From NCBI RefSeq assembly GCF_947496075.1, contig NZ_CANMBJ010000001.1, positions 310,001-374,000 on the forward strand: a DNA stretch of 64,000 nt, read 5' to 3'. The notes below the pieces were generated by a model. The model did not search any database. It was not told the DNA's origin and saw only the letters and a list, made by a program, of their open reading frames with translations. A program made the translations under genes and the position numbers. Positions 9,485-14,881 of the stretch are shown here, in pieces. The first letter of the stretch is position 1, and each line of letters opens with the position of its first letter. The DNA comes from an uncultured Tateyamaria sp. GTDB lineage: Bacteria; Pseudomonadota; Alphaproteobacteria; Rhodobacterales; Rhodobacteraceae.

Positions 9485-10984
9485 ATGCAGGAACTGACCC
9501 ACTACATCGATGGTGCCCACGTCAAAGGAACATCGGGCCGTTTTGCCGACGTCATGAACCCCGCCACGGGTGAGGTGCAGGCAAAGGTGCCGCTCGCTTC
9601 GGCAAGCGAATTGGCCCATGCCGTCGACATTGCTGCCAAAGCGCAACCGGCTTGGGCGGCCACCAACCCGCAACGCCGGGCGCGCGTGTTGATGAAGTTC
9701 GTGACTTTGCTCAATCGCGACATGGAAAAGCTGGCCGAAGCGCTCAGCCGCGAGCACGGCAAGACACTTCCCGATGCGGCAGGCGACGTGCAGCGCGGCC
9801 TCGAAGTTGTCGAGTACTGCATCGGCGCGCCGCACCTGCTGAAAGGCGAATACACCGACAGCGCCGGCCCCGGCATCGACATGTATTCCATGCGTCAGGC
9901 GCTGGGTGTGACGGCGGGCATCACGCCATTCAATTTCCCCGCCATGATCCCGATGTGGATGTTCGCGCCTGCCATCGCCTGCGGCAACGCCTTTATCCTC
10001 AAACCGTCCGAACGCGACCCGTCGGTTCCCCTGATGCTGGCCGAATTGATGGAAGAGGCGGGCCTGCCCAAAGGTATCCTGCAAGTGGTCAATGGCGACA
10101 AGGAAGCCGTGGACGCGATCCTGCACCACGACGTGATCCAGTCCATTGGCTTTGTCGGATCAACCCCCATCGCGGAATACATCTATGCCACGGGCTGTGC
10201 GAACGGCAAACGCGTTCAGTGCTTTGGCGGGGCCAAGAACCATATGATCGTCATGCCCGACGCCGACATGGATCAGGCCGCCGATGCGCTGGTCGGTGCA
10301 GGCTATGGCGCAGCGGGCGAACGCTGCATGGCGATCTCGGTGGCAGTGCCCGTCGGCGACGAAACCGCAGACCGTCTGATTGAAAAACTGGTGCCGCGCA
10401 TCGAAAAGCTTAAGGTTGGCCCCTACACCGCAGGCAATGACGTGGACTATGGCCCCGTTGTGACCGGCGCAGCCAAGGCCAACATCGAACGGCTTGTGCA
10501 AACCGGTATTGATCAGGGCGCCGAACTGGTTGTCGATGGGCGTGATTTCAAACTTCAAGGCTACGAAGAGGGATACTTTGTCGGTCCGCATCTTTTCGAC
10601 CGTGCGACCAAAGACATGGATATCTACAAGCAGGAAATCTTTGGCCCTGTCCTGACAACCGTCCGCGCACAAACCTACGAAGAGGCCATCGGCCTTGCCA
10701 TGGATCATGAATACGGAAACGGGACCGCAATCTTCACCCGGGACGGTGACACAGCCCGCGATTTTGCCAACCGAATCAACATCGGCATGGTAGGCATTAA
10801 TGTCCCAATTCCCGTGCCATTGGCCTATCATACATTTGGGGGCTGGAAAAAATCCGTATTTGGTGACCTAAATCAACACGGTCCTGACGCATTTAAGTTC
10901 TATACGCGTACGAAGACAGTGACGGCCCGTTGGCCATCTGGAATAAAGGAAGGCGGAGAATTTTCGATCCCCGTAATGGAATAG
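9485..10984 (+). CDS. mmsA: CoA-acylating methylmalonate-semialdehyde dehydrogenase
   Basis: A 499-residue aldehyde dehydrogenase that turns (methyl)malonate semialdehyde into propionyl- or acetyl-CoA, NADH and CO2, the last step of valine degradation. The catalytic Cys281 in GERCMAIS, the cofactor motif GFVGSTPIAEYIY, and the MMSDH-type ITPFNFPAMIPMWM are present. The ATG at 9485 begins MQELTHYIDG, the family start. The upstream part of the long frame is antisense to lysR. It leads an operon with the other valine-pathway enzymes. Confidence 0.95.
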   Translation: MQELTHYIDGAHVKGTSGRFADVMNPATGEVQAKVPLASASELAHAVDIAAKAQPAWAATNPQRRARVLMKFVTLLNRDMEKLAEALSREHGKTLPDAAGDVQRGLEVVEYCIGAPHLLKGEYTDSAGPGIDMYSMRQALGVTAGITPFNFPAMIPMWMFAPAIACGNAFILKPSERDPSVPLMLAELMEEAGLPKGILQVVNGDKEAVDAILHHDVIQSIGFVGSTPIAEYIYATGCANGKRVQCFGGAKNHMIVMPDADMDQAADALVGAGYGAAGERCMAISVAVPVGDETADRLIEKLVPRIEKLKVGPYTAGNDVDYGPVVTGAAKANIERLVQTGIDQGAELVVDGRDFKLQGYEEGYFVGPHLFDRATKDMDIYKQEIFGPVLTTVRAQTYEEAIGLAMDHEYGNGTAIFTRDGDTARDFANRINIGMVGINVPIPVPLAYHTFGGWKKSVFGDLNQHGPDAFKFYTRTKTVTARWPSGIKEGGEFSIPVME

Positions 10985-10985
10985 C

Positions 10986-11420
10986 ATGCCCATACGTTTT
11001 CGCATCATCCCGGACCGCGGCTTGGTCGTGGTCCGGTATTCAGGTTTCGTGACCATAGACGACACACTCGGTGCCACCCAAACCTATTTGGCCCACCCGC
11101 ACTATGCGCTTGGCCAAAAGCAGTTGGTCGATTTCAGCAGCATCACCGACTATGAACGGGACTATGTTCGTTTCATGCAGATGCAAGCGACCAAAGTAGA
11201 TCGCTTTGCCAACTCCGGCGTGCAATCGCTTGTTGTCTATATCGCACCAACGCAGATCAGTCAGGAACTGAGCGCGCTGTTCATTAAATCCTGGGACAAC
11301 GTGGATGCGGTTGTGCCGATGGTGCAGCACTCGGAATCCGAGGCACTGACGCTACTTGGTCAGCCTGAAAAATCCCTTGATATGCTTCTGCCCCCGGTCG
11401 GAAAGCAGGCCTTGCAATAG
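10986..11420 (+). CDS. Unknown protein in the valine operon (STAS/SpoIIAA-like size)
   Basis: A 144-residue cytoplasmic protein beginning one base after the mmsA stop. It has no signal peptide or membrane segment. The N-terminal half (IIPDRGLVVVRYSGFVTIDDTL...QKQLVDFSSI) alternates beta strands with helices in a way that recalls SpoIIAA/STAS-like proteins. I do not recognise a family with certainty. Position suggests co-transcription with mmsA, but nothing ties it to catalysis. Confidence 0.7.
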   Translation: MPIRFRIIPDRGLVVVRYSGFVTIDDTLGATQTYLAHPHYALGQKQLVDFSSITDYERDYVRFMQMQATKVDRFANSGVQSLVVYIAPTQISQELSALFIKSWDNVDAVVPMVQHSESEALTLLGQPEKSLDMLLPPVGKQALQ

Positions 11421-11481
11421 TCCTGCAAACATCGGAATTTAACGTGCGTTCAATTCAAGCCATTGCGCTATGGGAGGCAGC

Positions 11482-12624
11482 ATGGATTTCGCACTGACCG
11501 AGGAACAGACCGCAATTTTCGACATGGCCCATGCCTTTGGCCAGTCCGAGATCGCGCCCCATGCGCGCGATTGGGAAGCTGCTGGCACCATCCCCAAAGA
11601 CCTGTGGCTCAAGGTGGGTGAACTGGGCTTTGCTTCGCTCTATGTCTCGGAAGATGCGGGCGGTGCGGGTCTGTCCCGGCTTGATGCAACGCTGGTGTTC
11701 GAGGCGCTGAGCATGGCCTGCCCATCCGTTGCGGCCTTCCTGTCGATCCACAACATGTGCGCCAAGATGCTCGACAGCTTTGCGGGTGACGGTCTGAAGG
11801 TCCGCGTGATGCCGGACGTCCTGAGCATGAACACCGTGCTCAGCTATTGCCTGACCGAACCCGGCTCTGGTTCCGACGCGGCGGCCTTGCGCACCCGTGC
11901 GGATCGCACGAATGAGGGCTACACCCTGAACGGCACCAAAGCGTTCATCTCTGGTGGCGGATACTCGGATGCGTATGTCTGCATGGTGCGCACTGGAGAA
12001 GACGGGCCAAAGGGCGTGTCCACAGTCTATGTCGAAGACGAAACCGAAGGTTTGTCATTTGGTGGGCTGGAAGACAAAATGGGCTGGCGCAGCCAACCCA
12101 CTGCGCAGGTCCAGTTCGACAATTGCAATATCCCCAGCGGCAATCTGGTCGGAGAAGAAGGCCAAGGCTTTAAATATGCGATGATGGGCCTCGATGGCGG
12201 TCGTCTGAACATTGCCGCCTGTTCATTGGGCGCAGCCCAGACGGCTTTGAATGTGACGCTGGCCTATATGGGCGAGCGCAAGGCGTTTGGTCAGCCCATC
12301 GACCAGTTCCAGGGCCTGCAATTCCGCCTCGCGGATATGGAGATCGAACTGCAAGCCGCCCGCACTTTCCTGCGCCAAGCCGCATGGAAGCTCGACAACG
12401 GCGCGCCTGATGCCACCAAATTCTGCGCCATGGCCAAGAAGTTCGTGACTGACGCGGGATCCAGGGTCGTTGACCAGTGCCTGCAATTGCATGGCGGTTA
12501 TGGCTATCTAGCGGATTACGGCATCGAAAAACTGGTCCGCGATTTGCGCGTGCACCAGATCCTTGAAGGCACCAACGAAATCATGCGCGTGATCGTGGCG
12601 CGAGACATGTTGAAGAACCGATGA
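11482..12624 (+). CDS. Acyl-CoA dehydrogenase, probably isobutyryl-CoA dehydrogenase
   Basis: A 380-residue FAD-dependent acyl-CoA dehydrogenase. FAD/substrate motifs are CLTEPGSGSDAAALRT and KAFISGGGYSDAYV. The catalytic Glu sits in QILEGTNEIMR near the C-terminus, as in short/branched-chain enzymes. The ATG at 11482 follows GGGAGG. An ATG four codons upstream (11470) overlaps that ribosome-binding site and is less likely. Between mmsA and the hydrolase-dehydrogenase gene, it most likely oxidises isobutyryl-CoA to methacrylyl-CoA. The stop overlaps the RidA start by 4 bases. Confidence 0.92.
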   Translation: MDFALTEEQTAIFDMAHAFGQSEIAPHARDWEAAGTIPKDLWLKVGELGFASLYVSEDAGGAGLSRLDATLVFEALSMACPSVAAFLSIHNMCAKMLDSFAGDGLKVRVMPDVLSMNTVLSYCLTEPGSGSDAAALRTRADRTNEGYTLNGTKAFISGGGYSDAYVCMVRTGEDGPKGVSTVYVEDETEGLSFGGLEDKMGWRSQPTAQVQFDNCNIPSGNLVGEEGQGFKYAMMGLDGGRLNIAACSLGAAQTALNVTLAYMGERKAFGQPIDQFQGLQFRLADMEIELQAARTFLRQAAWKLDNGAPDATKFCAMAKKFVTDAGSRVVDQCLQLHGGYGYLADYGIEKLVRDLRVHQILEGTNEIMRVIVARDMLKNR

Positions 12625-12971
12625 CCGACATCAAGCGCTTCGATTCGGACAAACGGATGAGCCAGGCGGTTGTGCACGGTCAGACCGCTTATCTTGCCGG
12701 GCAGTGTGGTACCGCCTTTGCACCGATCCAGACCCAAACACGCGAAGCGCTGGCCAAGGTCGATCATCACCTTGCCGCCATGGGCACTGACAAAACCCGA
12801 TTGCTGTCCGTGACCATCTGGCTCGCCTCTATATCCGACTATGACGCCATCAACGAGGTTTGGGACGCATGGGTGCCCGCTGGTACCGCCCCCGCCCGGT
12901 CGTGCGGAGAGGTACAGATTGGTGGCGAAGGCTACGACATCGAAATCATCTGCACGGCGGCTTTGCCATGA
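12621..12971 (+). CDS. RidA/YjgF family protein
   Basis: A 116-residue RidA-family protein; members hydrolyse reactive enamine/imine intermediates. The conserved PARSCGEV region keeps the Arg that binds the substrate carboxylate, and the beta-sheet core LSVTIWLASISDY is typical. It overlaps its neighbours by ATGA on both sides (12621 and 12968), so translation is coupled to the valine enzymes. A role in removing imines formed during branched-chain amino acid breakdown is inference. Confidence 0.88.
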   Translation: MTDIKRFDSDKRMSQAVVHGQTAYLAGQCGTAFAPIQTQTREALAKVDHHLAAMGTDKTRLLSVTIWLASISDYDAINEVWDAWVPAGTAPARSCGEVQIGGEGYDIEIICTAALP

Positions 12972-14881
12972 CTGACATCTCCATCCGTATCACCGGGCGC
13001 GCGGGCCGGATCACCTTGCAGCGTCCCCAAGCGCTCAACGCGATGACCTATGAGATGTGCCTCGCCATCGAAGCGGCATTGGACGCATGGCGCAGCGATG
13101 ACAGTGTCGAAGTGGTGGTGTTCGATGCGATCGGCGACCGCGCCTTCTGTTCGGGCGGTGACATTGCCGAACTCTACGAAACAGGGACTAAGGGCGACTA
13201 TGCCTACGGCCAAACATTCTGGGCCGACGAATACCGACTGAACCACAAGATCTTTCACTATCCCAAGCCGGTGGTCAGCTTCCTGCAAGGGTTCACCATG
13301 GGCGGCGGGGTCGGCATTGGCTGTCACGGGTCACACCGCGTCGTGGGCGACAGCAGCCAGATCGCCATGCCAGAATGCGGCATCGGCCTTGTTCCGGATG
13401 TGGGTGGGTCGCTGATGCTCTCCCTCGCCCCGGGTCGTTTGGGGGAGTACTTGGGCACCACGGCGGCGCGGATGAATGCAAGCGACGCGATCTTTGCTGG
13501 CTTCGCCGACCACTACGTGGCCGAAGCACACTGGCCCGCACTGATAGCCACGCTTGAGGCCACGGGCGACACATCCTGCATCGCTGCTGCCGCCACGGAT
13601 CCGGAGCGCGGACCACTTCAACAAGCAATGCCTGACATTGACAGGCATTTTCATGGCGCGTCACTCAGCGACGTGCTGACCACGCTGCGGGACGAGGACA
13701 GTGACTTTGCTCGCGATACACTCAAGCGCATGGGCCGCAACAGCCCCCTCTCCATGGCCTGTACCATCGAAGCCCAGCACCGCCTGCGCGGTCCATCGCT
13801 GACCTTGGACAAGGCGCTGGACCTTGAATACCGTTTCACCGCGCGCGCAATGGAGCATGGTGACTTCCTTGAAGGGATCAGGGCGGCCATCATAGACAAG
13901 GACCGCACACCGAAATGGCAATATGCCGACGGCGCGGTCCCGCCCGCCGCGGTCAGCAAGATGCTGATGCCGCTTGGGGACATGGCACTCAAACTGGGAG
14001 GAACGGGCATGAAGATCGGATTTGTTGGGCTGGGCAACATGGGTGCCCCGATGGCCGCGAACCTTGCGAAGGCCGGGCATAGCGTGACCGGGTTCGACGT
14101 GGCCGGAACCACTGCCGAGGGCGTCACGAATGCCCCAAGCGCTGCTGAGGCCGCTACCGATCAGGACATCGTCATCACGATGCTGCCCAATGGCGACATC
14201 CTGCGCGCCGTCGCCGCCGAAGTGATCCCCGCGATGAAACCCGGCGCAACTCTGATCGACTGCTCGACCGTTGATGTGGAAAGCGCGCGTGCGGTCGCCG
14301 CACAGGCAGATGCTGCCGGGCTGGGCTCTGTCGACGCACCCGTCTCTGGTGGCATCGGCGGCGCTGCTGGTGGAACACTCACCTTCATGGCGGGCGGCAG
14401 CCCAGCGGCGTTCGACGCCGCCAAACCACTCTTCGACATCATGGGCCAGAAGGCCGTGCATTGCGGCGATGCAGGCGCCGGTCAGGCGGCCAAGATCTGC
14501 AACAACATGATCCTCGGCGCGACCATGATCGCCACCTGCGAAGCCTTTGCCCTGGCCGACAAACTCGGACTTGACCGACAAAAAATGTTCGATGTGGTCA
14601 GCACATCCTCGGGCTATTCTTGGACAATTAACGCCTATTGCCCTGCCCCGGGTGTCGGCCCGCAAAGCCCCGCGGACAATGGCTACACCCCGGGCTTCGC
14701 AGCGGAACTGATGCTGAAAGACCTCGGGCTGAGCCAGCAGGCGGCAGAGGCCGTCGACGCGGACACCCCGATGGGTCAACGCGCGCTCGAACTCTACCGC
14801 CAGTTTGTCGAAAACGAGGATGGTCTGGGCAAGGATTTCAGCGCCATGCTACCCCGGTTCGAAACCCGCGGGCGCGGCTGA
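12968..14881 (+). CDS. Fusion: 3-hydroxyisobutyryl-CoA hydrolase + 3-hydroxyisobutyrate dehydrogenase
   Basis: One uninterrupted 637-residue frame. Residues 1-347 are a complete crotonase-fold HIBCH-type hydrolase: FCSGGDIAELY (60-70), GFTMGGGVGIG oxyanion region (109-118), and MPECGIGLVPDVGGS (134-148) with Glu136 and Asp144. Residues 348-637 are a complete HIBADH/MmsB: KIGFVGLGNMGAPM NAD motif, APVSGGIGGAAGGT, and catalytic Lys at about 509 in AAKICNN. The enzymes act consecutively in valine catabolism. No stop separates them; the junction reads LGDMALKLGGTG-MKIGF. A GGAGGA lies 8 bases before the internal ATG (14009), so MmsB may also be made alone. A lost stop codon or a sequencing error are alternatives. 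The start ATG overlaps the RidA stop. Confidence 0.85.
   Translation: MTDISIRITGRAGRITLQRPQALNAMTYEMCLAIEAALDAWRSDDSVEVVVFDAIGDRAFCSGGDIAELYETGTKGDYAYGQTFWADEYRLNHKIFHYPKPVVSFLQGFTMGGGVGIGCHGSHRVVGDSSQIAMPECGIGLVPDVGGSLMLSLAPGRLGEYLGTTAARMNASDAIFAGFADHYVAEAHWPALIATLEATGDTSCIAAAATDPERGPLQQAMPDIDRHFHGASLSDVLTTLRDEDSDFARDTLKRMGRNSPLSMACTIEAQHRLRGPSLTLDKALDLEYRFTARAMEHGDFLEGIRAAIIDKDRTPKWQYADGAVPPAAVSKMLMPLGDMALKLGGTGMKIGFVGLGNMGAPMAANLAKAGHSVTGFDVAGTTAEGVTNAPSAAEAATDQDIVITMLPNGDILRAVAAEVIPAMKPGATLIDCSTVDVESARAVAAQADAAGLGSVDAPVSGGIGGAAGGTLTFMAGGSPAAFDAAKPLFDIMGQKAVHCGDAGAGQAAKICNNMILGATMIATCEAFALADKLGLDRQKMFDVVSTSSGYSWTINAYCPAPGVGPQSPADNGYTPGFAAELMLKDLGLSQQAAEAVDADTPMGQRALELYRQFVENEDGLGKDFSAMLPRFETRGRG

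Follow-up and report, generated by a model that had tools for sequence, protein, structure and literature searches.

What does a cell make from one reading frame that joins two consecutive enzymes of a pathway: a single bifunctional protein, or two products? The question is raised by a locus in a stretch of 64,000 nucleotides (the window) from an uncultured Tateyamaria sp. of the family Rhodobacteraceae (contig NZ_CANMBJ010000001.1, positions 310,001 to 374,000), in which a predicted 3-hydroxyisobutyryl-CoA hydrolase runs without a stop into a predicted 3-hydroxyisobutyrate dehydrogenase (HIBADH). The reading that we consider likely, judged from sequence comparison, is that of one gene with two products, a 66.5-kDa fusion and a 29-kDa free HIBADH, the latter made from an internal start that has been kept. 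The open frame, the complete domains, the repeated change between fused and separate states and the constraint on the internal start are properties of the sequences themselves. The features concerned are the following, with coordinates within the window.

12968..14881, + strand: fused open reading frame (ORF), 3-hydroxyisobutyryl-CoA hydrolase plus HIBADH, 637 amino acids (translation, Pfam, NCBIfam)
12968..14008, + strand: hydrolase half with C-terminal tail, residues 1-347 (ECH_2 at 13-331; NCBIfam; Foldseek)
13973..14008, + strand: 12-codon junction (LGDMALKLGGTG), its peptide poorly conserved among fused loci
13996-14002, + strand: internal Shine-Dalgarno sequence GGGAGGA; codons 344-345 are nearly always GGA GGA in the genus
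14009-14011, + strand: internal start ATG of the dehydrogenase (in 62 fused loci, ATG 60, ATT 1, TTG 1)
14009..14881, + strand: dehydrogenase half, residues 348-637, which can also be read from the internal ATG as a free HIBADH of 290 amino acids (Pfam, NCBIfam, Foldseek)

According to this reading, two adjacent valine-catabolism genes would have been joined in frame, with the ribosome binding site and start codon of the second gene retained. Ribosomes starting at 12968 would produce the hydrolase-dehydrogenase fusion, while those loading at GGGAGGA-ATG (13996-14011) would produce the free dehydrogenase. The fusion would carry out the hydrolysis of 3-hydroxyisobutyryl-CoA and the oxidation of 3-hydroxyisobutyrate on one chain, and free dehydrogenase subunits would probably complete or dilute its oligomers, so that only a fraction of the dehydrogenase pool would have hydrolase attached. 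We infer that the cell makes both products, that each half is active and that the oligomer is mixed.

The fused frame and its spread

The frame from 12968 to 14881 translates into 637 residues with its sole stop at the end, and Pfam places ECH_2 at residues 13-331, NAD_binding_2 at 349-500 and NAD_binding_11 at 503-628. The hydrolase half matches PF16113 with 364.8 bits (cut-off, 27.2) and the 3-hydroxyisobutyryl-CoA hydrolase family NF004127 with 372.1 bits (cut-off, 274; profile positions 10-352 of 356 over residues 3-340); the dehydrogenase half matches the HIBADH equivalog TIGR01692 with 362.4 bits (cut-off, 291.6; profile positions 1-284 of 288 over residues 352-628). Thus, the one-frame fusion of two full-length domains described in the earlier note was borne out, and a predicted hydrolase and a predicted HIBADH are both complete on one chain. 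Computed masses are 66.5 kDa for the whole fusion, 37.3 kDa for the hydrolase half and 29.2 kDa for the dehydrogenase half. Residues G354-G359, D456, P458-G462, K509 and N512-N513 are invariant in all 47 aligned fused proteins; we take GLGNMG, DAPVSGG and the lysine of GQAAKICNN to be the dinucleotide-binding and catalytic residues of HIBADH. An AlphaFold model built with these 47 aligned proteins shows two folds (mean predicted local distance difference test [pLDDT] of 85.4), with low-pLDDT stretches at 110-113, 547-560 and 566-576 and a predicted TM score of 0.62 that leaves the relative placement of the two halves uncertain. In Foldseek, the hydrolase half best matched 4j2u from Rhodobacter sphaeroides (TMt 0.93-0.95, 56% identity) and the dehydrogenase half matched the solved HIBADH 5y8g (TMt 0.90-0.91). 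None of the 50 matches listed spans both halves, as the longest target has 467 residues.

The simplest objection to such a frame is that a sequencing or assembly error deleted a stop. Whether homologues with the same domain order exist had been raised in the earlier note, and they do: the fusion is open in all 20 genomes of the genus of the window (its own included) and, among the matches listed, in 33 of 295 genomes of the family, all sequence-checked. These 33 comprise 31 full-length matches without a stop, one genome in which the gene runs off the contig (G245) and one with a partial match (G119); family genomes below the matches listed were taken to lack the fusion, given that unbroken genes receive the top scores. 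A one-genome oddity was rejected on these counts, and the error explanation, to which we give practically no credence, is refuted by independent genomes carrying the same open frame. Fused records include Sulfitobacter brevis, Roseobacter sp. H9, Thalassovita taeanensis, Pelagimonas varians, Marivita hallyeonensis, Thalassococcus profundi, Tropicibacter naphthalenivorans and Maliponia aquimaris. Full-length matches without a stop were found in 2 of 385 genomes of a class sample (cut-off, 1e-120) and in 3 of 398 of a phylum sample (cut-off, 1e-90), all of them members of the window's own family, so no unbroken fusion was seen outside the family in either sample. Nor was one seen among the best 25 of 251 plasmid records, where all 25 join two pieces. 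In the window's own genome, the runner-up match covers the dehydrogenase half only, at 36% identity.

The internal start signal

To compare start signals we used 201 distinct loci, 62 fused and 139 separate, with sequence taken for the part of the 295 family genomes at the top of the match list. Locus L176, which runs off its contig, was counted as fused, and L108 and L114 were left uncounted since they have no adjacent hydrolase. Shine-Dalgarno energy, scored over the 15 bases from 18 to 4 before the start, had a median of -9.3 kcal/mol at the internal start of fused loci (-6 kcal/mol or lower in 57 of 62) and of -9.5 kcal/mol at the dehydrogenase start of separate loci (128 of 139), compared with -2.5 kcal/mol at 1314 other in-frame methionine codons of the fused ORFs, only 11% of which reached -6 kcal/mol. 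The fused starts differ from these other methionine codons (p = 1e-34) and do not differ from the separate ones (p = 0.11). From -20 to +20 of the internal start, the mRNA is also predicted to be open, with a mean folding energy of -3.7 kcal/mol in fused and -4.3 kcal/mol in separate loci (difference, p = 0.03); folding at 693 sampled internal methionine codons was stronger (mean, -10.0 kcal/mol).

The signal seems to be kept as DNA rather than as peptide, since the aligned GGAG core occupies two of three codon phases, one in 40 fused loci and a second one in 21 (none was found in 1), and the residues that it encodes vary accordingly (GG, EE, RE, KE and others). Eighteen of the 21 loci with the second phase belong to the window's own genus. 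Within the 20 loci of that genus, Gly344 is encoded by GGA in 17 of 17 cases and Gly345 in 15 of 16, against a background of 139 GGA among 1393 glycine codons outside the junction. Among 66 glycine columns conserved in at least 17 of the 20 loci, position 344 alone reaches 80% GGA or more, and the nearby Gly347 uses four codons. When each fused locus was redrawn synonymously 1000 times from its ORF's own codon usage within a fixed window of positions, the natural signal fell in the strongest quarter in 55 of 62 loci, in the strongest 5% in 23 and in the weaker half in 3 (p = 1e-11); in the 42 rows outside the genus it fell in the strongest quarter in 35 and in the strongest 5% in 18 (p = 2.5e-8). 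A codon table at motif positions was not used because those positions are picked by the motif, which is partly circular; the fixed-column test in the genus and the fixed-window redraws are free of this fault. In five fused loci (L011, L013, L019, L039 and L043), the ATG is displaced upstream by three codons relative to the common IGF-type motif, and its Shine-Dalgarno sequence precedes this shifted ATG. Taken at the level of sequence, the Shine-Dalgarno sequence and the start codon are kept beyond the demands of the peptide, with exceptions in 3 of 62 loci. Such a signal is expected under selection on internal initiation, but not for a protein made in fused form only. The suggestion of the earlier note that GGAGGA and the ATG allow the dehydrogenase to be made separately is therefore supported by the strength of the Shine-Dalgarno sequence, the GGA constraint and the redraws.

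Several observations weigh against two products. The loci are related and not independent, so that the p-values given above are too small and overstate the case. In addition, the signal is incomplete in the three exceptions: the ATG is replaced by ATT in L119 and by TTG in L148, while L058, a fused Marivita locus, retains the ATG without a Shine-Dalgarno sequence. L119 (its start position was set by hand in the energy, fold and redraw tests) comes from a congener 95% identical (genome G295), and its dehydrogenase half is intact and 96.6% identical to that of the window. Its genome gives a single match at 1e-60 or better, hence no second close HIBADH, and for this reason the fused chain must serve as the dehydrogenase there and the free form may be dispensable, unless the ATT still initiates. 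This supports a working fused enzyme and makes the free form perhaps not indispensable, although the ATT may be a sequencing error. L119 constitutes a natural test case for a fused-only protein.

A purely bifunctional enzyme, in which only the fused chain matters and channels 3-hydroxyisobutyrate while the internal start is a relic, would draw on L119 and on the fact that consecutive pathway steps are fused in frame. We find it improbable given the synonymous constraint on the Shine-Dalgarno codons, the open mRNA and the ATG in 60 of 62 fused loci, and repeated switching of state does not suggest a strong gain from fusing. Moreover, a survey of metabolic fusions (PMC4921024) reported that fusion does not by itself promote channelling, the direct hand-over between active sites that the earlier note envisaged. 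The Shine-Dalgarno sequence and the open mRNA, on the other hand, could also serve ribosome pausing between two folding domains instead of initiation, which is a further point against two products; the stretch does lie at the domain boundary, and L119 and L148 retain it without an ATG. Pausing nevertheless appears very improbable, because it accounts neither for an ATG spaced for initiation in 60 of 62 loci nor for local structure that is no stronger than where the separate genes start. We hence retain the reading of one gene with two products.

State changes at the junction and origin of the fusion

The junction itself is variable: in the 47 aligned fused proteins there is no invariant column between P335 and G354. 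Mapped on a FastTree phylogeny of both proteins, the fused or separate state changed 17 times, at least 9 of them forced by well-supported branches, and an IQ-TREE phylogeny of 176 of the 201 distinct loci (L181, L185, L082 and most of the distant outgroups were omitted) gave 18 changes, at least 11 of them forced. A single fused clade was rejected by the approximately unbiased (AU) test (p-AU 0.000185). Equal costs yielded 14 gains and 4 losses of the fusion, and other settings gave anything between 1 gain with 25 losses and 21 gains with none, so that the direction of change depends on the costs chosen. Because the fused state has come and gone many times, joining is probably nearly neutral or of slight benefit.

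These changes bring in a second explanation, a neutral fusion in which the junction drifts between fused and separate while the cell uses the free dehydrogenase and the fused part is a tolerated tail. We judge it possible, though short of an even chance, and it is compatible with the preferred reading, as two products are assumed in both. The 17 to 18 changes with rejection of a single clade, start signals equally strong in fused and separate loci and the poorly conserved junction peptide all speak for it, whereas some groups are uniformly fused (the genus in 20 of 20 genomes, for example) and L119, lacking the ATG, would depend on the fused dehydrogenase. An extension of the two-product reading is more speculative, and we regard it as somewhat unlikely: fused and free chains would co-assemble, the internal start would set the ratio of free to fused chains so that the oligomer carries a limited number of hydrolase arms, and the two-product gene would have evolved repeatedly in one family by changes of one or a few bases at the junction. 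If this were true, the family would offer a natural experiment on the conditions under which fused enzymes persist or revert.

Relatives show three types of junction: an in-frame stop one codon before the ATG, a stop further upstream, and an ATGA overlap in another frame. Separate pairs fall in the three frames in 87, 15 and 37 of 139 cases, a count biased towards frame 0 because sequences came from the top of the list. On the tree, the separate locus closest to the window is L038, with an in-frame stop (its junction length also differs), followed by L092, where the two genes overlap at an ATGA in different frames. The earlier note had the fusion arise simply by loss of a stop codon. Stop loss does fit, since L038 has such a stop, but a one-base insertion into an ATGA overlap would serve equally: the 25-base junction word of L097, a separate locus with an ATGA overlap in a Sulfitobacter metagenome-assembled genome, equals that of L126, a fused congener, minus one G over 26 bases. 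Either event may therefore lie behind the fusion in the window's group. In another lineage, substitution of the stop fits the comparison of L016 with L017 and L021.

Related systems and the gene neighborhood

Prokaryotic fusions of consecutive metabolic enzymes are reportedly known from the his genes, and they likewise place two neighbouring pathway steps on one chain. The fusion described here is of this known kind and stands out by its frequent switching within one family and its kept internal start, unlike the metabolic fusions surveyed. Literature searches of open-licence papers found no description of a hydrolase-HIBADH fusion among the papers listed, and the main text of the survey mentioned above (PMC4921024) contains neither hydroxyisobutyr- nor enoyl-CoA hydratase nor valine. 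Other Rhodobacteraceae, such as Ruegeria pomeroyi (SPO_2211-2213; PMC3305630), have the hydrolase (ECH_2) and HIBADH as separate genes. The Ruegeria loci compared have the same short junction and Shine-Dalgarno sequence as the fused locus; in the separate pairs, the two genes are set apart by a stop or by an overlap that shifts the frame. Short distance, same strand and a Shine-Dalgarno sequence characterize translationally coupled gene pairs (PMC12548453), and the fused locus shares all of these. However, the fused locus has no stop between its two parts, so re-initiation after termination is impossible and any start at the second site has to be an internal one. An internal in-frame start gives a long and a short product in cheA and infB, which like the fused locus have one frame with two start sites; unlike there, the short product here would be a complete former neighbour gene.

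Where neighbouring pathway enzymes are fused, a gain of channelling is a common interpretation. The present case is a caution that a gene annotated as a fusion may conceal a second product, and that drift at a junction can create the gene-fusion links on which annotation draws. As relatives in one family switch by small changes and retain the means to make the second enzyme on its own, the fused and the separate form of this pair are directly comparable.

The genes upstream of the fusion fit a valine degradation operon, a pathway to which such genes are well known to belong.

9485..10984, + strand: aldehyde dehydrogenase, probably methylmalonate-semialdehyde dehydrogenase (mmsA) (PF00171; subfamily inferred from context)
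10986-11420: 144-codon ORF between aldehyde dehydrogenase and acyl-CoA dehydrogenase, without a Pfam match
11470..12624, + strand: acyl-CoA dehydrogenase, probably isobutyryl-CoA dehydrogenase, upstream in the same gene run (Pfam Acyl-CoA_dh domains; isobutyryl specificity inferred from context)
12621..12971, + strand: RidA-family gene with a 4-base overlap with each neighbour (PF01042; overlaps from coordinates)

A RidA-family gene is missing from all 62 loci of the genome collection that have 2.5 kb or more of sequence upstream, and a relative of the 144-codon ORF was upstream in only 4 of 62 loci tested. Within the genus, 8 of 20 genomes have the RidA-family gene at this position, flanked by the acyl-CoA dehydrogenase and the fusion. 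Among the other 12, the acyl-CoA dehydrogenase lies directly against the fusion in 9, and a different stretch of ca. 340 to 390 bases with no RidA match precedes it in L123, L124 and L127.
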